DNA of 32,883 bases from Spirochaetales bacterium (GTDB taxonomy: Bacteria; Spirochaetota; Spirochaetia; Sphaerochaetales; Sphaerochaetaceae), in contig JAQYHB010000049.1 in assembly GCA_028722305.1 (NCBI GenBank), forward strand, positions 1-32,883, read 5' to 3'. The notes under the pieces are model-generated. The model was not told where the DNA came from. It worked only from the letters and a program-made list of their open reading frames with translations, and did no database searches. Made by a program: the position numbers and the translations under genes. Below, piece after piece: positions 3,634 to 23,791 of this stretch (the stretch's first letter is position 1; each line of letters opens with the position of its first letter).

Positions 3634-4662
3634 TCAGTTCTGTGGTTTTGGAATGCCGAATTTATCCGGAGCATATTTGGTCGCTCCGGCATCGTAGAGC
3701 ATCCAGCTGACCTGGGATTCCCAGGAGGCGTAGAAACGCTTGATATCTTCGATGGAAGGATACTCCTCGTAGAGCTTCTCAAGACAGTTCTTGTCGGCGA
3801 AGGAAACCCAGGCGGGATCCTGGACAACCTTCAGGCTGGCATCACGAAGCACCTTTTGGACGTCGGCCGGCACAGCTTTGGAAACCAGGAAATTCAGCGG
3901 GGTGAAGGCGTTCTTCATGTAGGGAGCGGCTTCGGGAACCACCTCCTCGAAAATCGGCACGTCGGGATAGGCGGCCAGATGGCGGTTGCTGCTGACGGCG
4001 AGCAGGCGCAGGTCTCCGCTCTGGATGTAGCCGGTGACCGTCGCGAAATTCGAGTTGGTGAAGTCGACCTCGCCGGAAAGGACAGCCAGGAAGCAGTCGT
4101 TGCCGCCTTTATAGGCGGTCATGGCGGGCTTGTAGCCCAGTTTTTCCATGATCAGACCTTGGATGTGTCCACTGCCGCCAGGACCGGTATAGCTCATCTT
4201 CACCTTGCCCGGGTTGGCTTTCATGGCATCCAGCAGGTCCTGGAAGGTCTGGTACTTCGAATCCTTCGCGACGACAATCACCTTCGGGTCGTTGACGACA
4301 GCCATAATCGGCGCGAAGTCCGCGTAACTCATGTCAGACAGGCCCATGACGCGCTGGGTCCCGAGACTTTCAGCGGTGAACAGGACGGTATAGCCATCCG
4401 GCTGGGCGTCAAGCGCGGCCTTGCAGCCGATCGAGCCGCTGGCTCCTCCCTGGTTGACGACAGTCACGCTTTGCCCGAGCTGCTTGGACAACAGGGCGGC
4501 GAACTGGCGGCCGGAGACATCCGCCGTGCCTCCCGCGCCGTACGGAACAATCATGGTAACCGGCTTGGCCGGATAGGGTGCCTTTCCCTCCTGCTGAGCC
4601 TGTCCAAAGAGCGACGCCGCCATCATGGCCATGGCGCCAAACAAAAGCATTGTTTTTTTCAT
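3634..4662 (-). CDS. tctC: Tripartite tricarboxylate transporter periplasmic substrate-binding protein (TctC)
   Basis: This 342-residue protein binds the substrate in the periplasm and hands it to TctAB. A signal peptide is clear (MKKTMLLFGAMAMMAASLFG, cleavage near residue 20-24). There is no lipobox cysteine, so it should be soluble rather than lipid-anchored. The mature start has the family hallmark VTMIVPYGAGGTADVSGRQF (about residues 35-53), and DGYTVLFTAES occurs later. I chose ATG 4662 over an in-frame ATG 72 bases upstream because AGAGGAAG lies just before it and the signal peptide then begins MKK. It is the first gene of the operon, so its position and the hairpin after it suggest high expression. 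The ligand is unknown. Confidence 0.93.
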   Translation of the reverse strand: MKKTMLLFGAMAMMAASLFGQAQQEGKAPYPAKPVTMIVPYGAGGTADVSGRQFAALLSKQLGQSVTVVNQGGASGSIGCKAALDAQPDGYTVLFTAESLGTQRVMGLSDMSYADFAPIMAVVNDPKVIVVAKDSKYQTFQDLLDAMKANPGKVKMSYTGPGGSGHIQGLIMEKLGYKPAMTAYKGGNDCFLAVLSGEVDFTNSNFATVTGYIQSGDLRLLAVSSNRHLAAYPDVPIFEEVVPEAAPYMKNAFTPLNFLVSKAVPADVQKVLRDASLKVVQDPAWVSFADKNCLEKLYEEYPSIEDIKRFYASWESQVSWMLYDAGATKYAPDKFGIPKPQN

Positions 4663-4693
4663 AGCACTTCCTCTCATCAACGCAACAATCGTG

Positions 4694-4730
4694 TCGAAAG
4701 TATTCGAACATTTCCAACGGTTAAAGTCAA
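4694..4730 (-). promoter_or_regulatory. Candidate tctC promoter with overlapping inverted repeat
   Basis: On the minus strand, TTGACT (4725-4730) is 17 bases from TCGAAT (4702-4707), a moderate sigma-70 match. An inverted repeat TCGAA-N4-TTCGA (4694-4707) covers the -10 and could be an operator for a tct regulator. No regulator gene is in the window. The -10 is weak and the arms are short, so this is tentative. Confidence 0.3.
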
Positions 4731-4823
4731 GCACAAGTTTACATTTTTATGTATAAATATGCACAAAACATTCACTTGGTTCCATTTTCAGCCCTGTTGC
4801 TGTACGCAAGCCGGACAAGGTGG

Positions 4824-4829
4824 TATGCT
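4824..4829 (+). promoter_or_regulatory. Candidate -10 element for a near-leaderless uppS transcript
   Basis: TATGCT ends 7 bases before the chosen uppS ATG (4837). No clear -35 lies at standard spacing; TTGCTG at 4797-4802 is 21 bases upstream. There is no Shine-Dalgarno correctly placed for ATG 4837. The same arrangement recurs upstream of trkA, metG and others in this window. Confidence 0.3.
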
Positions 4830-4836
4830 TGCCTCC

Positions 4837-5529
4837 ATGGAAAGTTCTATACCGACCCATGTCGGATTCATCATGGACGGCAACGGCCGCTGGGCAAAGA
4901 AGCGAGGTCTGCCCAGGGCGGCGGGACACATCGAGGGGCTGAAGTCCCTCAAGCGGGTCATCGTCAGCTGCCGCGACCACCATATTCCCTTCATCACCCT
5001 GTACGTCTTCTCCACCGAGAACTGGAAGCGCAGCCAGCAGGAGGTCAGCTATCTGATGCATCTGTTGGCCTGCAAGCTCCCCGGAGAAATCAATTTCTTT
5101 ACCCAGGAGCACGTGCGAATCCGCGTCCGTGGCGACGTTGCAGGGCTTCCCGAGGCCGTCCGCAAGGCGATTGGCGAGACCGAAGAGGCGACCAAAGCCG
5201 AGATCGGCATCACCTGTTGTCTCGCCATCAACTATGGCGGGCAGGATGAGATCGTACGTGCGGCCAACAAGGCAATCGCCGGCGGCAAGACAAGCCTCAC
5301 CGCCGAGGATATCCGGGGAAACTTGGACTTGTGTGACATCCCACCGGTGGATATGATAGTACGTAGTGCCGGAGAGCATCGGTTGAGCAACTTCCTGTTA
5401 TGGGACAGTGCCTACGCGGAACTCGCGTCTTATGAGAAACTCTGGCCGGATTGGGGCGATCGCGAGGTGGAACAGCTCTGTGAGGACTACCGTGGCCGTA
5501 CCCGGAAATTCGGAGGATTGAAAGGATGA
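4837..5529 (+). CDS. uppS: Isoprenyl transferase / undecaprenyl diphosphate synthase
   Basis: This 230-residue cis-prenyltransferase condenses isopentenyl diphosphate onto farnesyl diphosphate to make the C55 lipid carrier for envelope glycans. Seen are the catalytic MDGNGRWA (residues 13-20, Asp14), YVFSTENWKR (56-65), INYGG (131-135) and RSAGEHRLSNF (176-186), all in family order. Length is slightly short because the N-terminus is trimmed. An in-frame ATG at 4825 would add four residues, but it sits only 4 bases after AAGGTGGT. The frame stays open far upstream, antisense to tctC, but no homology extends there. The stop overlaps the cdsA start (ATGA). It is the first gene of the uppS-cdsA-dxr-rseP operon. 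Confidence 0.95.
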   Translation: MESSIPTHVGFIMDGNGRWAKKRGLPRAAGHIEGLKSLKRVIVSCRDHHIPFITLYVFSTENWKRSQQEVSYLMHLLACKLPGEINFFTQEHVRIRVRGDVAGLPEAVRKAIGETEEATKAEIGITCCLAINYGGQDEIVRAANKAIAGGKTSLTAEDIRGNLDLCDIPPVDMIVRSAGEHRLSNFLLWDSAYAELASYEKLWPDWGDREVEQLCEDYRGRTRKFGGLKG

Positions 5530-15785: not shown

Positions 15786-16686
15786 AACAGCGATACATCA
15801 AGGGAGAAAGGGGCCAGTCCATCGTCGGCCTGCGGGAGACCACGCTTCCTCCGAACGAGGTCTTGAACATGTCAAGGCTTTTCAGGTGGGCTCCCCTTCC
15901 GTCCTTCCCGCTGACCCCGAACAGGTCGTAGCGGGGAATCTTGTTGTCGCAGGAAAAATGGATCATCGCGTCCTGCAGGGCATGGCTTGCCGTGCAGTCC
16001 CGCATCCTGGCGGAGGCTCCGAACAGGTAGACTGCCTCCTGCGGCCCGTACAGCAGGATCGTGCCCCCCACCATCTGCCGGTTTCTCCAGGCAAGGAAGA
16101 GTTTGGTTTTCGTCTGACCTGACGGACCGTGCAGCACATCCCACAGATAGTCCCGGCTGCGGGTGGAGAAACCGTCCCTTCGTCCGGTTTGCTCGTACAG
16201 GCTGAAGAAGAGGTTGAACTGGCGTTCGCTGCCGTCCCACTCCCGGACTTCCACGATCCCCTGGCTCTGCTTCAACTGCCGTTTGGCGCGATCCCGGTAT
16301 TCCCTGGATACCGCCCCATAGCCTTTTTCGAGGGGAATGACCACCGTGGCGTCGGGCTGGACCGAATCCCGCTGGACAATCGCTCCATTGGTATCCAGCT
16401 CCATGCCGAAGGGCAAATCGTACCGTATGGCAAAGGTACCTTTCGGAAGATACTTCTTCAGGGCGAGGGACAGATCCTTCAGGCTCACCGGCTGCTGGGG
16501 GCCAAAGGGGACATAGGCAAGGGTCATGCACCGGAAAAAAGTCCTGGTAAGCACCAGAAGCGTGGAATGGGAAAGATGGAAGGCAAAGACGTTCCACCCG
16601 TGCTTTTGCTTCAACGCCGCCCAGTAGGGGCTCTGCATGCAAAGGGCGGAGGACAACTCCTCCGCCCGTATTTGCGCGAGAAACAT
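15739..16686 (-). CDS. FemAB-like GNAT-fold acyl/aminoacyltransferase
   Basis: This 315-residue protein resembles FemA/FemB/FemX proteins, which add amino acids from aminoacyl-tRNA to peptidoglycan precursors, and related acetyltransferases. Visible are a YRDRAKRQLKQS helix (about residues 128-139), YLFGASARMRD, ALQDAMIHFSCD, RYDLFGVSG and FKTSFGG, the order seen in the C-terminal half of the family. The two-GNAT layout is compatible with the length. The ATG at 16686 shares one base with the metG stop (TGATG), so it is translated with metG, the gene that charges tRNA. That is suggestive but not proof of aminoacyl-tRNA use. Its 3' end overlaps murD on the other strand. Confidence 0.78.
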   Translation of the reverse strand: MFLAQIRAEELSSALCMQSPYWAALKQKHGWNVFAFHLSHSTLLVLTRTFFRCMTLAYVPFGPQQPVSLKDLSLALKKYLPKGTFAIRYDLPFGMELDTNGAIVQRDSVQPDATVVIPLEKGYGAVSREYRDRAKRQLKQSQGIVEVREWDGSERQFNLFFSLYEQTGRRDGFSTRSRDYLWDVLHGPSGQTKTKLFLAWRNRQMVGGTILLYGPQEAVYLFGASARMRDCTASHALQDAMIHFSCDNKIPRYDLFGVSGKDGRGAHLKSLDMFKTSFGGSVVSRRPTMDWPLSPLMYRCFTLAEFLRYRLSRGF

Positions 16687-18941
16687 CAGCCTACGTTGCC
16701 GTTCACGTACGTGTGCGCGTGAACTTCCTTTCCATCGGCGCTGACAATCTTCTTGCCGTCGACCATCAGGACGCCATCCTTGGTGGTCATCGGCATCGCG
16801 AAGAACGGCTCGGGCTTCACGTAGCAGTAGTCCTCGGTCGGCGCGCTGAACCCTTCGGGCTCCAGCACGGTACCGGCCGGGATGTCGTCCGGGAAAAGCA
16901 CCTCGCAGGTATCGTGCGGGTTGGGCGCGGTCGGGTCGCTGGCGGCCAGCAGCATGCCATAGCTCTTGACGCCACGGAAGTTCGCCGGTTTCAGGTTGCT
17001 GACCAGGACGATATGACGGCCCTGCAATTCCTCCGCCTTGTAGAAAGGAACGATCGAGCTGACGATGGTGCGCGGGTTCGGGCTGCCGTCGTTCAGCGTC
17101 AGGATGTAGAGCTTGTCCCCTTCGGGGTGCTTCACCACGTTGGTAATCTCGGCGACTTTCAGGATGACATGCTTCTGGAAGTTCTCTGCAATCGTCAAAT
17201 TCGGATCCAATGCGCCCATATTGTGCTTGTTCGCTCCTTCTTTCTGTTTCTTCTGCTCTTGCTTCGGAGCGGCCTCCCGGGCCTTCTCCTCGCGCTCCTT
17301 CTGGCTCCCGCTGAAGCGCTCGCGGAGCGCGGCGATACGGTCATCCTCCAAGCGCTGGAAGAGCAGCTCGACATCGCCGATGCGGATATCCCCGTCCCAG
17401 CTCCCCAGTTCCTTCCAGGTCCGCTTTTCGATTCCGAAGAATCCAAGCAGCTTGGCGCTGGTGGCCGGCATGAAAGGCTCGATCAGGACAGCCAGGTCCT
17501 CGATCAGGAAGCAGAGGGTGCGCAGCACCTTCTTGGTCGCCTCCATGTCGGTATTCTTGGTTTTCCAAGGCTCGGCATCCTGGAACATCTTGTTGCCTGC
17601 TGAGGAGAGGGCAAGGATGGCGCGAAGCGCCTCCCGCTCGTCCGCCCGCTCCATCAGGGCGTCGATCTTGCTCTCGTACTGGAGGACAAGCTTCCGGAAC
17701 TCCTCGTCCACCGGGCCGGATTCGAGATACCCCTCCGACACCTTCTTGGTAAAGGTGACGGTTCGGTTGACCAGGTTGGAAAGGTTCCCGATCAGTTCCT
17801 TGTTGACCTTCTCCTGGAAATCAGCCCAGGTGAAGGTGAAGTCGCTGGTTTCCGGACGGTTGTAATACAGGTAGAATCTCCAGACATCGGCTGGAATCCC
17901 GGTAGACTCGACATCGTTGCCGAAGATGCCGATTCCCTGGCTCTTGCTGAACTTGCCCCCCTCATAGTTGAGGTACTCGGTCGAGCTCATGTGATGGAGC
18001 ATGGTCCAGTTGTCGCCGGTCGCTAGCTGGGTCGCGGGGAAGATGACGGTATGGAAGGGAATGTTGTCCTTGCCGATGAACTGGAAGAGCTCGGTGTGTT
18101 CGGGATCGAACCACCAATCCTTCCAATTCTCCGTCGCGTACGCGCTGATCGACACGTAGCCGATGCAGGCGTCGAACCAGACATAGAAGACCTTGTCCTC
18201 GAAGCCCTCCAGGGGAACGGGGATGCCCCACTTCAGGTCGCGGGTGATGGCGCGGTCCTTCAGGCCGTCGCGGATCCAGCTCTTGGTGATCTGGATGGCG
18301 TTGTTGGCCCAGAACCCCTCGACCGAGGCCTTGTCCATCCACTTCTCCAGCATGGGGAGCGCCTTGGGCAGGTCCAGGTAGAGGTGCTTGGTCTTCTTCA
18401 GCACGGGGGTGGTGCCGCAGACGGAGCATTTCGGTTCCTTCAGCTCGGTCGGGTCAAGCAGCGTGCCGCAATGCTCGCACTGGTCTCCGCGCGCTTTCTC
18501 ATACCCGCAGTGGGGGCAGGTGCCGGTCACGAAGCGGTCGGCGAGGAAGCGTCCGCAGTGGGGGCAGTAGAGCTGCTCCTCCTCGTGGACGGTGATGTAG
18601 CCGGCGTCATAGACCTGCCTGAAGATGTGCTGGACAATTTCCGTCTGCTTGGGAGTGCTGGTACGACCAAAATAGTCGAAGCTGATGTTGAACCACTTGT
18701 AGATTTCCTTGTGGATTGCATGGTAATGGTCGCAGAGCTCGCGGGGGCTCATGTGCTCCTGCAGCGCGCGGGTCTCCGTCGCGGTGCCATACTCGTCGGT
18801 ACCACAGACATACAGGGTCTCATAGCCCTTGGAACGGCAGAAGCGTGCGAACACGTCCGCGGAAAGTACCTGCAACAGGTTCCCCAGGTGGGGAACGTTG
18901 TTCACGTACGGCAAAGCAGAGGTAATCAGTCGTTTTTTCAT
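16686..18941 (-). CDS. metG: Methionine--tRNA ligase with C-terminal tRNA-binding domain
   Basis: This 751-residue class I synthetase charges tRNA-Met. HIGH equivalent is HLGN (18-21). The connective insertion has four Cys pairs (C126/129, C142/145, C155/158, C172/175), giving the two-zinc-knuckle form. KFSKS is at 330-334. An anticodon-binding helical domain follows, then a charged Glu/Lys/Gln linker (about 545-575) and an EMAPII/Trbp111-like OB domain (from about 600; HPEGDKLYILTLNDG, NLKPANFRGVKSYGM). About 80 further residues follow the OB core. The ATG has no Shine-Dalgarno, and a good promoter -10 ends 8 bases before it, so the mRNA may be leaderless. Confidence 0.96.
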   Translation of the reverse strand: MKKRLITSALPYVNNVPHLGNLLQVLSADVFARFCRSKGYETLYVCGTDEYGTATETRALQEHMSPRELCDHYHAIHKEIYKWFNISFDYFGRTSTPKQTEIVQHIFRQVYDAGYITVHEEEQLYCPHCGRFLADRFVTGTCPHCGYEKARGDQCEHCGTLLDPTELKEPKCSVCGTTPVLKKTKHLYLDLPKALPMLEKWMDKASVEGFWANNAIQITKSWIRDGLKDRAITRDLKWGIPVPLEGFEDKVFYVWFDACIGYVSISAYATENWKDWWFDPEHTELFQFIGKDNIPFHTVIFPATQLATGDNWTMLHHMSSTEYLNYEGGKFSKSQGIGIFGNDVESTGIPADVWRFYLYYNRPETSDFTFTWADFQEKVNKELIGNLSNLVNRTVTFTKKVSEGYLESGPVDEEFRKLVLQYESKIDALMERADEREALRAILALSSAGNKMFQDAEPWKTKNTDMEATKKVLRTLCFLIEDLAVLIEPFMPATSAKLLGFFGIEKRTWKELGSWDGDIRIGDVELLFQRLEDDRIAALRERFSGSQKEREEKAREAAPKQEQKKQKEGANKHNMGALDPNLTIAENFQKHVILKVAEITNVVKHPEGDKLYILTLNDGSPNPRTIVSSIVPFYKAEELQGRHIVLVSNLKPANFRGVKSYGMLLAASDPTAPNPHDTCEVLFPDDIPAGTVLEPEGFSAPTEDYCYVKPEPFFAMPMTTKDGVLMVDGKKIVSADGKEVHAHTYVNGNVG

Positions 18942-18949
18942 AGTCCCAA

Positions 18950-18978
18950 ACTATAATCCTAATAGCCGCTCTCTGCAA
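18950..18978 (-). promoter_or_regulatory. Promoter of metG, placed for a leaderless or near-leaderless mRNA
   Basis: Minus-strand TTGCAG (18978-18973), exact 17-base spacer, TATAGT (18955-18950). Only 8 bases separate the -10 from the metG ATG at 18941. A start at the usual distance gives a leader of 0 to 2 bases. Confidence 0.6.
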
Positions 18979-19134: not shown

Positions 19135-19163
19135 TTGAGCGTTCCTTTTCCCTTTGATAAAGT
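19135..19163 (+). promoter_or_regulatory. Promoter of trkA, placed for a leaderless mRNA
   Basis: TTGAGC (19135-19140), 17-base spacer, TAAAGT (19158-19163), then GGAACC and the ATG at 19170. The usual start, 7 bases after the -10, is the A of the ATG. Confidence 0.6.
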
Positions 19164-19169
19164 GGAACC

Positions 19170-20516
19170 ATGCTTGTTGTAATTCTTGGTGCCGGCCACC
19201 GTGGCCTGCACCTCGCGAAGCTCCTGATTGGAGAAAAGAAAGACATCACCTTCATCGACTCGGACCCGGAACAGTGCGACTTGGTCGCGCAGAAGCTCGA
19301 CTGCATGGCTGTCAACGGCAGCGGTACCGACCCCCAGGTGCTGGACGAGGCCGGGTGCAGGAATGCCGATATCTTCATCGCCATCACCAACAGCGACGAG
19401 GTCAACCTCGTCTCCTGCGCCCTTGTCTCCAGCAAGTTCAAGACACCCCGGACCATCGCAGTCATCCGGTCGATGAGCTACACCGGCAGCGAGATGAACG
19501 TCCCGCTCTTGGGAGTCGACATCATCGTCAACCCGTCTGAAGAGGTGTCCAAACAGGTCTATGACATCATCATGAACGGCCTCTACCAGGGAGCCATGAC
19601 CTTCCCCCACACGCCGTTCATCCTCTGCAACCTTTCCATTTCCTATGCCAGCCCGCTGAGGGACATGCCTCTTTCCAAGGTCAGGCCGCTGATCAAGACC
19701 CCCTTCGTCCTGGCCGCCATCCAGCGGGGAAGGCAGACGTTGCTCCCCTCAGGATCGACGGTGCTGCAGAAGGGCGACACGCTGGCGCTGATTACCTTCA
19801 AGGAGCAGATGACCGAGATGCTCGGCGAGTTTGACGCGTCGATCAGCTCGCCCAGGCATATCTGCCTGGTGGGGGCCGGACGGATCAGCCGCTATCTGCT
19901 CAGCAAGTTCTCCCCCTCCAGACGCAAATGGATCACCGTGGTCGACATCGACGAGGCGAAGTGCGAGCAGTTCAGCGAGATGTACCCGGAGACGCTGGTC
20001 ATCAAGGGGGATATCACCGACCAGAGCGTCTGGGACGACGAGTCTCTCGACGACTATGACTTGATGGTGGCAATCACAGACAAGGACGAGCTGAACATCA
20101 TCATCAGCGCCTATGCCAAGCGCATGGGCATCGCCCACACGATCGCGCTGGTCAAGACCAACCCCAACTACGCCATGCTTGCCCGCCACCTGGACATCGA
20201 CACCGTCATCAGCTCCACCGAGTCGACGGTCGACAGCCTGCTGCGCTATATCAGGGGCGAGAACATCACCTCCATCCACTCGATCTTTGGAGGTTCCATC
20301 GAGGTGGCGGAATACAAGCTCACCGCGACCAACAAGCTGCTCGGGCAGAAGCTGAAGGATGTCCCGCTTGCCGGCAAGGTGATCATCACGGGTGTCACCG
20401 ACAAGGACAAGAACAGCATCCTCGCTAATGGCAACTATACCTTCACGGAGGGGGACACCATTCTGGTCGCGGTCCCCCACGGCAGGGTCGATTACGCGAC
20501 GAGGCTCTTCTCATGA
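19170..20516 (+). CDS. trkA: Trk potassium uptake regulatory subunit TrkA
   Basis: This 448-residue cytoplasmic protein gates the TrkH channel according to bound nucleotide. It is a tandem duplication. The first RCK half has a Rossmann motif GAGHRG (7-12), the acidic FIDSDPE at the second strand and a TrkA-C part. The second half repeats it from about residue 230 (CLVGAGRISRYLL, VVDIDEAKC, MVAITDKDELN), with a second TrkA-C at the end. Length is right for full TrkA rather than single-domain KtrA. Its stop overlaps the trkH start (ATGA). Confidence 0.95.
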   Translation: MLVVILGAGHRGLHLAKLLIGEKKDITFIDSDPEQCDLVAQKLDCMAVNGSGTDPQVLDEAGCRNADIFIAITNSDEVNLVSCALVSSKFKTPRTIAVIRSMSYTGSEMNVPLLGVDIIVNPSEEVSKQVYDIIMNGLYQGAMTFPHTPFILCNLSISYASPLRDMPLSKVRPLIKTPFVLAAIQRGRQTLLPSGSTVLQKGDTLALITFKEQMTEMLGEFDASISSPRHICLVGAGRISRYLLSKFSPSRRKWITVVDIDEAKCEQFSEMYPETLVIKGDITDQSVWDDESLDDYDLMVAITDKDELNIIISAYAKRMGIAHTIALVKTNPNYAMLARHLDIDTVISSTESTVDSLLRYIRGENITSIHSIFGGSIEVAEYKLTATNKLLGQKLKDVPLAGKVIITGVTDKDKNSILANGNYTFTEGDTILVAVPHGRVDYATRLFS

Positions 20517-22084
20517 ACCTGAAACAGGATTTCCGCCTGCTTGCCCTGATCCAGATTTTCATCGGGCTTTTCATGGGCATCCCCGCCATCATCGCCTATT
20601 GCTGGAACGAGGAGGCGGCTCTGCGCTCTTTTCTGCTGACCATGGGCTTGGTTGCCCTGTTCGGTTTCCTGGTCCTGTTCCTCTGCCGCAACCGCAAGAA
20701 CGAGCGAATGAGCCCTGCCGATGGATTTTTGTTCGTCACCCTGACCTGGGTGCTGGCGACGGCCTTCGGCGCCCTGCCCCTCGTGCTCTCCGGGACGATG
20801 GACAGCTATTCCGCGGCATATTTCGAGATCATGAGCGGCTTCACCACCACCGGGGCGAGCGCGATGACCTCGATCGAGGACAAGGCACGCTCCATCCTTT
20901 TCTGGCGCAGCGAGACCAACTGGCTGGGAGGTATGGGAATCGTCGTCCTCTTTGTCGCCTTCCTTCCGATGCTCGGCGTCAAGGGGACGATGCTCTATGG
21001 CAGCGAGTCGGCGGGCCCGACCAAGGACAAACTGACCCCGAAGACCGGAGGCACCGCTGGCGCGCTCTGGACGATCTATCTGGGCATTTCCGCCCTGCAG
21101 GTGGTGGTGCTGATGCTGGGCAAGCTCTCCTGGTACGACGCGGTCACCATCACCTTCAGCACGATGAGCGCCGCGGGCTTCTGCGTCCGCAACAGTTCGA
21201 TCGGCTCCTTCCAGAGTCCCTTTGTCGATACCGTCTGCATTTGCTTTATGTTCCTTTCCGGCGTCAACTTCTCCCTCTATTTCAAGATGCTCAGCGGAAG
21301 GGCGAAGCAAGCGTTGCGCGATGGGGAGCTCAGGGCCTATACCCACATCGTCCTGGCATTCTCCTTCCTGATTGCCCTGAGCTTGTCCTTCAGCGGACTC
21401 TACACGAACTTCCTCACTTCCCTGCGCTACGCCTTCTTCCAGGTAGTCAGCATCCTGACCACCACGGGGTTCGCCACGGCCGACTTCACCCGTTGGCCGG
21501 TCTTCTGCCAGATGCTCCTGTTCGCCCTTTTCTTCATCGGCGGGTGCGCCGGATCGGCTGGCGGCGGCATCAAGGTGGTCCGCGTCGTCGCCCTGGTAAA
21601 CCTAGGCAGGAACACGCTCCACAAGAGGCTTCACCCCAGCGCAGTCTGCAAGAACCGAGTCGGAAGCGACGTGGTGGATACCGACGTCATGCTGGGCATC
21701 GCCGGTTTCGTCGGCCTCTATCTGACCACAGGCATCATCGGGGCGGTCGTCATCTCCCTTGCGGGCCAGGACCTGGTCACCACCTTCTCCGCGGCCTTCC
21801 TCGCCCTCGGGAACATCGGCATCGGATTCGGCAACATCGGACCGACGGGCAACTTCAGCGTCTTTCCCTCCTGGTGCCAGTGGATATTTTCTTTCCTGAT
21901 GCTTGCCGGTCGTCTCGAGCTTGTCACCGTCTACGCCCTCTTCTCCCGTTCCTTCTGGAGGGACCAGTCGGCGTGGCAGGCAAGCAGGAACGAGAAACGC
22001 AGGCTTGTCCGGGAAAAGGAGTATTACAAGCAGCACCGCCAGACACAGATGCTGGAGAAGATCGCCAACCAGGACGAAGGTTAG
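20513..22084 (+). CDS. trkH: Trk potassium uptake channel TrkH
   Basis: This 523-residue membrane protein conducts K+ across the inner membrane. Four pore-loop regions can be recognised, each with a filter glycine: SGFTTTGASAM, STMSAAGFCVRNSS, LTTTGFATADF and ALGNIGIGFGNIGP. The protein ends with a charged cytoplasmic tail (KRRLVREKEYYKQHRQ). The start overlaps trkA by 4 bases. The stop TAG overlaps the stop of the convergent small gene at 22081. Confidence 0.95.
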   Translation: MNLKQDFRLLALIQIFIGLFMGIPAIIAYCWNEEAALRSFLLTMGLVALFGFLVLFLCRNRKNERMSPADGFLFVTLTWVLATAFGALPLVLSGTMDSYSAAYFEIMSGFTTTGASAMTSIEDKARSILFWRSETNWLGGMGIVVLFVAFLPMLGVKGTMLYGSESAGPTKDKLTPKTGGTAGALWTIYLGISALQVVVLMLGKLSWYDAVTITFSTMSAAGFCVRNSSIGSFQSPFVDTVCICFMFLSGVNFSLYFKMLSGRAKQALRDGELRAYTHIVLAFSFLIALSLSFSGLYTNFLTSLRYAFFQVVSILTTTGFATADFTRWPVFCQMLLFALFFIGGCAGSAGGGIKVVRVVALVNLGRNTLHKRLHPSAVCKNRVGSDVVDTDVMLGIAGFVGLYLTTGIIGAVVISLAGQDLVTTFSAAFLALGNIGIGFGNIGPTGNFSVFPSWCQWIFSFLMLAGRLELVTVYALFSRSFWRDQSAWQASRNEKRRLVREKEYYKQHRQTQMLEKIANQDEG

Positions 22085-22482
22085 GAACCGAAGGAAAGGC
22101 TGACGAGCAGGTTGTCCCTCATGCAGAGGGTGAGGTAGGTGCCGTCCGGCAGGCGCACCGGAACCAAGGTATAGGCTCCGCTCGGAATGGGTTTCCCGTA
22201 CAACGCCCCCATTGCCGGCAGCATGGCTGTCAGACGGTCTTGATAGACACGGGGAAAGGCGTTTCTCACCTCAGGGTCGACATAGGCTTCCAGCCAGTCC
22301 AACGTGTATGCATGCTCCAGCATGGCCCGCACCTGGGGCTCCGGCTCGGTGATGGCGCCAAGGGTCGCATCAGTGGCGGCGACAATCTCGCCCCGCTCGA
22401 TGGCAAGGCGCTGCTCGGTCTCCTTGGCGGAGAGAGGAATGGCGGAAAGAAGAGCCAGCAACAAAAGGTGGAAGTGCCGCAT
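22081..22482 (-). CDS. Small secreted protein of unknown function
   Basis: This 133-residue frame has a clear signal peptide (MRHFHLLLLALLSAIPLSA, cleavage near residue 19-20) and an unrecognised mature domain of about 114 residues with helical parts (VRAMLEHAYTLDWLEAYV) and a strand-rich end (YTLVPVRLPDGTYLTLCM). No lipobox. ATG 22482 is preferred over a frame start 18 bases upstream because the signal peptide then begins correctly. There is no Shine-Dalgarno; TACGAT lies 6 bases before the ATG. It converges on trkH with a 4-base stop overlap and diverges from the HD gene. Probably periplasmic or exported. Confidence 0.75.
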   Translation of the reverse strand: MRHFHLLLLALLSAIPLSAKETEQRLAIERGEIVAATDATLGAITEPEPQVRAMLEHAYTLDWLEAYVDPEVRNAFPRVYQDRLTAMLPAMGALYGKPIPSGAYTLVPVRLPDGTYLTLCMRDNLLVSLSFGS

Positions 22483-22537
22483 GGCCCCATCGTACCCCAA
22501 TCTTTCCTTTCAGTACAGTTCCGTTTACCATGGAGCC
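22483..22537. promoter_or_regulatory. Back-to-back promoters in a 55-base divergent gap
   Basis: Minus-strand TACGAT (22494-22489) and plus-strand TACCAT (22526-22531) each lie exactly 6 bases from the ATG they face, with matching GGGGCC and GGAGCC between. Any -35 boxes must overlap in the middle (TGTACT and TTTCCT at 17-base spacing, both weak). No Shine-Dalgarno is present on either side. Confidence 0.4.
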
Positions 22538-23791
22538 ATGAACCACAACGAAATGCTTTCCCTTTTGTATGACGGCCTGGAGATAACGGTGCGCGACGCG
22601 CTCTGGAAGGATATTCCGATGAGTCCGGAGCTTTTCCGGGTCATGCGATGCGGGTGCGTGCAGAAGCTCTCCCGCATCCAGCAGCTCGGACCTGCTTCCC
22701 TGGTCTACCCCTCGGCTGTCCATACCCGCCTCGACCACAGTCTCGGGGTCTACTACCTGTCCCTCTCCATCCTCCGATCCCTCGCCCACAAAAGCCGCGA
22801 GCCCCAGTTTACCACGCAGGGGGTCAGGAGTTTTTTGGCTGCGGCGCTGCTACATGATATCGGCCACTTTCCCTATGCCCACTCGCTGAAAGAGTTGCCG
22901 TTGAAGAGCCACGAGGCGCTGGCAGGGGAAATGATCATGAGCGACAAGGAGTTGAACCAGGCGCTCCTCGAAGCGGGGGTGGAACCAGCGATGGTCGCCG
23001 GCATCATCGACGACACGCTTCCCACCGACGACCAGGAGGTGGCCTGCTATCGGAAAATGCTCAGCGGCACACTGGATCCGGACAAACTGGACTACCTGAA
23101 CCGGGACGCGTGGTTCTGCGGTGTCCCGTATGGAAGTCAGGATGCCCCGTTCATCACCTCCCACATGGCGCTTTCCGACGGATTTCCCGCGTTGGAAGAG
23201 AAGGCGCTGGGCAATGTCGAGCACCTCTTGTTCGGCAAGTACCTGATGTACCGCTCGGTCTACTGGCATCCCTCGACCCGCTCCGCTACTGCGATGATCA
23301 AGAAGGCGTTGCTGACCGCCTTGGCCGACGGCGCGATCGAGGGAACCCAGCTGTACGGGCTCGACGACAGCCAGTTCTTCCGGCTTGCCGAGCGGGTCGG
23401 CCACCCTGCCTTCGAGAATATCCGCCAGGTGCATGACGGCCGTCTGTTTCCGGTCGCCTACGAGAGGGACTGGCGCGAGACCAGCCCCTTTGACCGCGAA
23501 GCGTCCAGCCTTGCGGGACGCGGCGCAATCGAGCGGAGGATCTTCGAACGGCTCTCGGCGTCCTATCCGACGCTGAAGCCGTGGCAGGTGGTCGTCGATA
23601 TCCCCGAACCGATTTCCTTTGAGGCCGATATTCCCATTCTGCTTTCCGATGGAAGGAAGGTGCCCTTCCTTGAGCGGGACCAGCTCTTCCAGTCCGACAT
23701 CAGCCAGGTATTCACCCGCTGCCTGCGCAAAACCCGCCTCTATCTGCCTGCCTTGGTTGATGGCAAGAACGTGCGGAATTTGCTAGAATGA
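22538..23791 (+). CDS. HD-domain phosphohydrolase (dNTPase / SAMHD1-like family)
   Basis: This 417-residue metal-dependent phosphohydrolase has the metal ligands in family order: HTRLDHSLGV (His62, His67), LLHDIGHFPYAH (His106-Asp107) and LDPDKLDYLNRD (about 175-190). This set is typical of HD proteins related to dGTP triphosphohydrolases and SAMHD1. The nucleotide specificity cannot be told by eye. The ATG at 22538 has no Shine-Dalgarno. It is the first gene of a plus-strand run that includes a TtcA-like protein 4 bases downstream. Confidence 0.88.
   Translation: MNHNEMLSLLYDGLEITVRDALWKDIPMSPELFRVMRCGCVQKLSRIQQLGPASLVYPSAVHTRLDHSLGVYYLSLSILRSLAHKSREPQFTTQGVRSFLAAALLHDIGHFPYAHSLKELPLKSHEALAGEMIMSDKELNQALLEAGVEPAMVAGIIDDTLPTDDQEVACYRKMLSGTLDPDKLDYLNRDAWFCGVPYGSQDAPFITSHMALSDGFPALEEKALGNVEHLLFGKYLMYRSVYWHPSTRSATAMIKKALLTALADGAIEGTQLYGLDDSQFFRLAERVGHPAFENIRQVHDGRLFPVAYERDWRETSPFDREASSLAGRGAIERRIFERLSASYPTLKPWQVVVDIPEPISFEADIPILLSDGRKVPFLERDQLFQSDISQVFTRCLRKTRLYLPALVDGKNVRNLLE

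Follow-up and report, generated by a model that had tools for sequence, protein, structure and literature searches.

Several genes in the window, the 32,883-nucleotide stretch of DNA analysed here, start with an ATG that is preceded at a short, nearly fixed distance by the hexamer TANNNT. This raises the question of whether these hexamers are -10 boxes of promoters that abut the start codon, from which the genes would be transcribed without a leader. The window corresponds to contig C49 in the 56-contig draft genome (2.71 Mb) of a rumen-type spirochaete. Among named relatives, the closest is the uncultured Spirochaetaceae bacterium RUG023, which encodes a 98% identical TrkA and was the single relative recovered when TrkA was searched across genome contigs. 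Pfam names trkA (TrkA_N, TrkA_C), trkH, metG, an HD-domain gene and a PP-loop (ttcA-like) gene. A Pfam search gave no match for the product of a small minus-strand gene starting at position 22482 (hereafter the 22482 gene), which contains an N-terminal hydrophobic segment.

Hexamers and genes in the window

The first-pass annotation had placed TANNNT exactly six bases before the ATG of trkA, the HD gene, the 22482 gene and the ttcA-like gene, and eight and seven bases before those of metG and uppS, respectively. All of these hexamers are present, as are the -35 boxes that it had described 17 bp further upstream at trkA and metG (Table 1). At trkA, the HD gene and the 22482 gene, the first T lies 12 bases upstream of the start codon, which is the position of a -10 box.

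Table 1. Coordinates of the hexamers, -35-like boxes and genes discussed in the text (positions of the window).
Feature	Position	Strand	Remarks
trkA -35-like box TTGAGC	19135..19140	+	17 bp before the -10 box; present in RUG023 too
trkA -10 box TAAAGT	19158..19163	+	6 bases before ATG 19170
trkA, TrkA_N/TrkA_C potassium uptake protein	19170..20516	+	Pfam; predicted leaderless
metG -35-like box TTGCAG	18973..18978	-	17 bp before TATAGT; 3 of 6 consensus letters
metG -10 box TATAGT	18950..18955	-	8 bases before ATG; 7 in most orthologues
metG, methionyl-tRNA synthetase	16686..18941	-	Pfam; predicted leaderless or nearly so
HD gene -10 box TACCAT	22526..22531	+	6 bases before ATG 22538
HD-domain protein gene	22538..23791	+	Pfam; predicted leaderless
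22482 gene -10 box TACGAT	22489..22494	-	6 bases before ATG; kept in RUG023
22482 gene, small, divergent from the HD gene	22081..22482	-	Predicted leaderless, with weaker support
uppS candidate hexamer TATGCT	4824..4829	+	7 bases before the likely start ATG 4837
ttcA-like gene hexamer TAGAAT	23784..23789	+	Overlaps the end of the HD gene; ATG 23796; judged a chance match

The trkA start is backed by the N-termini of its orthologues, and trkH follows trkA with an overlap of four bases. Individually, the -35 box is clear at trkA, partial at metG and weak at the HD and 22482 genes of this genome. Several HD orthologues contain TTTACA or GGACA boxes, and most metG orthologues in the family carry TTGAAA- or TTGCAG-like boxes at about the same spacing as here. 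The metG hexamer at spacing 8 is a better one than the metG match at spacing 6, and this wider spacing would allow a leader of one or two bases. All four starts (trkA, metG, HD and 22482) are divergent. Furthermore, the HD and 22482 genes diverge from 55 bp (window positions 22482-22538). As a -10 box abuts either ATG, the two promoters must overlap; in several other genera, weak relatives of the 22482 gene adjoin the HD gene. Another divergent pair, tctC/uppS, is located at window positions 4640-4837.

The leaderless reading was also considered for the ttcA-like gene, to which it probably does not apply. This gene follows the HD stop codon by four bases on the same strand, an adjacency that is kept co-directionally in most relatives, and does not stand with a promoter of its own at the head of a transcription unit. 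Because of this position, and because operon-internal genes show no excess of the hexamer (see below), TAGAAT is most likely a chance match.

No Shine-Dalgarno site was detected by our scan at trkA, metG, the HD gene or the 22482 gene; a slightly wider scan flagged metG. The first-pass statement that these starts have no usable Shine-Dalgarno site is true but weak evidence, because any AT-type hexamer at this place displaces the site. Genes carrying the control hexamer AT...T also have a Shine-Dalgarno frequency of 5%, and depletion was therefore dropped as independent evidence, as matched hexamers show it equally.

Positional peak and promoter features

Genes were called with a coding-potential model blind to upstream motifs, and TANNNT was then tallied per distance from the start. 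The sample of the source genome combined the window with stretches totalling 390 kb (423 kb altogether, 16% of the genome), with whole-genome coverage confined to pattern counts. The gene caller misses uppS, where it calls a minus-strand ORF, and begins tctC a few codons downstream of its start, errors which would blur a peak rather than create one.

In the source genome, TANNNT was found 6-8 bases before genes outside tight operons in 30 cases versus 10.2 expected (p = 4e-7). Among 331 genes, spacings 6, 7 and 8 accounted for 17, 9 and 7 matches compared with 3.9 per position elsewhere, and the single match at spacings 5-8 among 105 operon-internal genes was that of the ttcA-like gene. A pooled set of ten spirochaete genomes (1046 non-operon genes) gave 140 matches at spacings 6-8 against 63.9 expected (p = 1e-16), spacing 6 being the commonest and spacings 7 and 8 contributing 45 and 28. 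One genome from another class (G083) was excluded after its own TANNNT profile proved peakless, so that most genomes behind the pooled ratio show the signal; the source-genome test and the whole-genome pattern counts are independent of this exclusion. Of the individual genomes, the source genome, a second species of its genus (G024), G022, G066, G106 and others show the peak, which is weak in G017 and G048. TANNNT at spacings 6-8 precedes 13% of non-operon gene starts compared with 2.5-3.5% of internal ATGs, and roughly one third to one half of single matches at these spacings are expected by chance.

The peak depends on both gene position and hexamer identity. Divergent genes have 45, 32 and 15 matches at spacings 6, 7 and 8 versus 11.6, and the peak is absent from 535 operon-internal genes. 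Permuted A/T-type hexamers (AT...T, TT...A, AA...T, TA...A and others) occur at 0.5-1.1 times background without a peak, and the remaining hexamers enriched at the same place are purine-rich, as Shine-Dalgarno sites predict.

Several further features accompany the hexamer. Exactly 17 bp farther upstream, the bases are T in 75%, T in 52% and G in 48% of the 67 genes that have spacing 6, which corresponds to a sigma-70-type -35 box at the group level. A pyrimidine occupies position -1 in 58 of these 67 genes compared with 559 of 909 others (p = 2e-5), so that the purine-then-C spacer described in the first-pass annotation generalizes to a G-leaning discriminator with a pyrimidine at -1. The start codon is ATG in 65/67 genes versus 757/909 others (p = 0.001), as a preference for AUG would predict. 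Annotation-free counts, whose codon and spacer comparisons omit G083, gave ATG 6, 7 and 8 bases downstream of TTG-N20-TANNNT in 59, 45 and 31 cases against 20.4. No comparable peak was observed for GTG, CTG, ATA, ATC or AAG; TTG reached 27 at spacing 7 versus 18.6. The ATG peak disappeared with -35 spacers of 11, 14, 16, 19, 21 and 24, and a spacer of 18 showed a slight rise at most. Together, the TTG at 17 bp, the pyrimidine at -1 and the near-exclusive ATG are those of predicted sigma-70-type promoters abutting start codons.

Across the whole source genome, TANNNT-N6-ATG by itself was counted 547 times and the reversed pattern 511 times, a comparison without information value, as the majority of these matches lie away from starts. 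The full pattern TTG-N20-TANNNT-N6-ATG occurs 59 times and its N7 version 43 times, compared with 11 for the N12 version, a stricter control adopted because the reversed pattern overstates the excess somewhat. The genome-wide excess that the first-pass annotation had proposed to count is thus present (30 versus 10.2 by position in the sample; 59 versus 11 by pattern). Sixteen of the 59 matches are starts of copies of one gene family (PF09820), and keeping one of these leaves 44 versus 11.

The source genome contains 25 matches to this multi-copy AAA-ATPase_like family including fragments, many of them at contig ends (e.g. L018 and L014; contigs C3, C4, C5, C8, C11, C16, C17, C25, C32, C37, C45, C51 and C55). 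The start regions of the 16 copies resemble one another (TTGCCA...GGCTGTGGTATCCTTGAGCCATG), and a leaderless-type promoter thus appears to have been copied along with the gene.

In the sample, the excess corresponds to 20-24 of 351 genes (about 6%). Extrapolated from the 16% sample to 2.71 Mb, approximately 130-150 such genes would be expected genome-wide, the lower figure using the distance background and the upper one the roughly 0.6-fold local depletion of other AT-rich hexamers.

Conservation within the family and the class

Within the family, TANNNT at spacings 5-9 is present in 22 of 29 trkA, 26 of 30 HD and 23 of 30 metG orthologues, where chance would give 6-10%. The binomial p values range from 2e-16 to 4e-28 and overstate significance, because the genomes were treated as independent. 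The flanks of the trkA, HD and metG orthologues have diverged, and the boxes and their spacing are retained. The motif of the 22482 gene is kept in 4/14 relatives. Outside the family, TANNNT is kept in 7 of 15 metG orthologues, and most metG orthologues without it carry a Shine-Dalgarno site instead (6/7 in the family, 6/8 outside). This replacement is less regular in family members lacking TANNNT at trkA (3/7) or the HD gene (3/4). In genus g3, trkA is preceded by an AAGGAG-like sequence and looks like a Shine-Dalgarno-led start inside an operon, the start assignment being uncertain. The retained boxes and the Shine-Dalgarno replacements resemble an inherited mode that was exchanged in single lineages.

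Among 197 genomes of the phylum, TTG-N20-TANNNT-N6-ATG reached at least twice the reversed control in 56 of the 59 class members outside family f5, compared with a ratio of 1.2 for f5 as a whole; other classes were mixed, with a ratio of 1.77 overall. Relative to the N12 control, 18 class genomes outside f5 gave 1265 (N6) and 852 (N7) versus 314 matches, and three f5 genomes gave 71 and 118 versus 105. We consider it somewhat more probable than the contrary that trkA, metG and the HD gene preserve an old mode common to the class Spirochaetia, from which single lineages swapped to Shine-Dalgarno sites and which was lost in f5.

Two deviations were observed among the genomes searched. The f5 genomes (G116, G140, G144 and others) show no excess of the pattern, unlike nearly all other class members, possibly as a lineage-specific loss in small genomes. 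The highest count was found in G172 (family f35), with 241 full-pattern matches versus 26 reversed; this genome may have an unusual abundance of leaderless starts, or of a repeat family.

Proposed initiation mode and relation to known systems

Very likely, each of trkA, metG and the HD gene is transcribed from a sigma-70-type promoter that abuts the ATG and gives rise to a leaderless mRNA, as probably is the 22482 gene, this being one of two standing modes of initiation in the source genome. The architecture and position of these promoters, their genome-wide excess and their conservation are direct observations. The exact 5' end, taken from the positions of the boxes, and the translation step are what we infer from them. 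With TTG..., a 17 bp spacer and TANNNT placed 6-8 bases before the ATG, the first base transcribed by RNA polymerase would be the A of this ATG or would lie a base or two away from it. The resulting mRNA would contain neither a leader nor a Shine-Dalgarno site, and ribosomes would engage its 5'-terminal AUG. The mode would be confined to first genes of transcription units, and many other genes would use Shine-Dalgarno sites. The first-pass proposal of leaderless transcription is thereby strongly supported, as a prediction, for trkA, the HD gene and metG by position, -35 box, initiator, start codon and cross-genus occurrence, but probably does not extend to the ttcA-like gene.

An alternative to which we assign a modest probability is that the promoters are real and close, but that transcription starts at -1 to -5 and leaves leaders of a few bases. 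This would agree with the 45 and 28 pooled genes at spacings 7 and 8, for which leaders of 0-2 bases may be expected, and with Leptospira, where many mapped starts lie at most 10 bases from the codon and not exactly at it (PMC5243855). However, the commonest spacing is 6, which combines a pyrimidine at -1 with A at +1, the usual start-site preference, and translation would be the same in kind, since 1-5 bases of leader leave no room for a Shine-Dalgarno site at a functional distance from the codon.

It appears very improbable that the genes have ordinary leaders from promoters farther upstream, with TANNNT at their starts reflecting chance or composition. TANNNT is admittedly a loose motif: TANNNT-N6-ATG occurs 12 times in the window versus 4.0 expected (none of 100 shuffles reached 12), and only five of these matches are at called starts (trkA, HD, 22482, ttcA-like and metG), among which the ttcA-like case fits this explanation. 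The sharp peak at 6-8 bases, its restriction to this hexamer among A/T-type ones, the matched -35 box at 17 bp and the conservation of trkA, HD and metG across genera all speak against it. A translation signal, e.g. an AU-rich S1-type site, would likewise account for a hexamer at the position of ribosome-binding elements, but we regard it as scarcely credible, as TA...T alone is enriched among AT-rich hexamers, is coupled to TTG at exactly 17 bp and is absent from operon-internal genes, which need translation signals too. A peak in divergent, first-in-unit genes and not in operon-internal ones, together with TTG at 17 bp, fits promoters at start codons rather than a translation signal or base composition.

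Leaderless genes of this kind are known, and the first-pass annotation was mistaken in assuming that there was no report of them as a common mode in spirochaetes. TANNNT approximately 12 bp upstream of the start has been described as a bacterial leaderless signal (Zheng et al., 2011; PMC3160421), and according to Table 2 of that study, 6 of 18 spirochaete genomes are predicted to contain leaderless genes, at a mean of 3.9% of genes (1.8-6.9). Motif and position agree with those described here; the portion of that study considered names no spirochaete species or genes, whereas the present analysis follows individual genes within one family and through the class. In Leptospira interrogans, differential RNA sequencing mapped transcription starts to the translational start for 184 and 170 genes at 30 and 37 °C, respectively, and to within 10 bases for about 440 genes (PMC5243855). 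This evidence, also from a spirochaete, is experimental, whereas the boxes considered here are read from sequence; no general -10/-35 consensus was recovered in L. interrogans, and our genomes mostly belong to another class. A literature search combining leaderless genes with Sphaerochaeta found no paper, and the family- and orthologue-level picture was not found described in the papers searched. In this lineage the leaderless mode had previously been noted only in passing and is here traced gene by gene.

Orthologues that switched between leaderless and Shine-Dalgarno-led starts constitute natural test pairs for how and why the mode of initiation changes. Furthermore, the motif can aid the setting of gene starts, as tools relying on Shine-Dalgarno sites may pick the wrong start in these genomes. 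In Deinococcus-Thermus, TANNNT adjoining the ORF has been shown experimentally to act as a -10 box (PMC12340547), and actinobacteria such as Mycobacterium tuberculosis also possess leaderless genes with a TANNNT -10 box by the ORF (PMC3898074). As in the spirochaete genomes, the hexamer lies a few bases before the ATG and alternates with GGAG-type sites within one genome. The source genome has, set against these groups, a -35 box at 17 bp at the group level, and its predicted share of leaderless genes is about 6%, compared with approximately 30% of ORFs in Deinococcus-Thermus. The present findings suggest that promoters at start codons are not peculiar to Deinococcus and actinobacteria, but are stable and conserved across most of a spirochaete class, also at central genes like metG.
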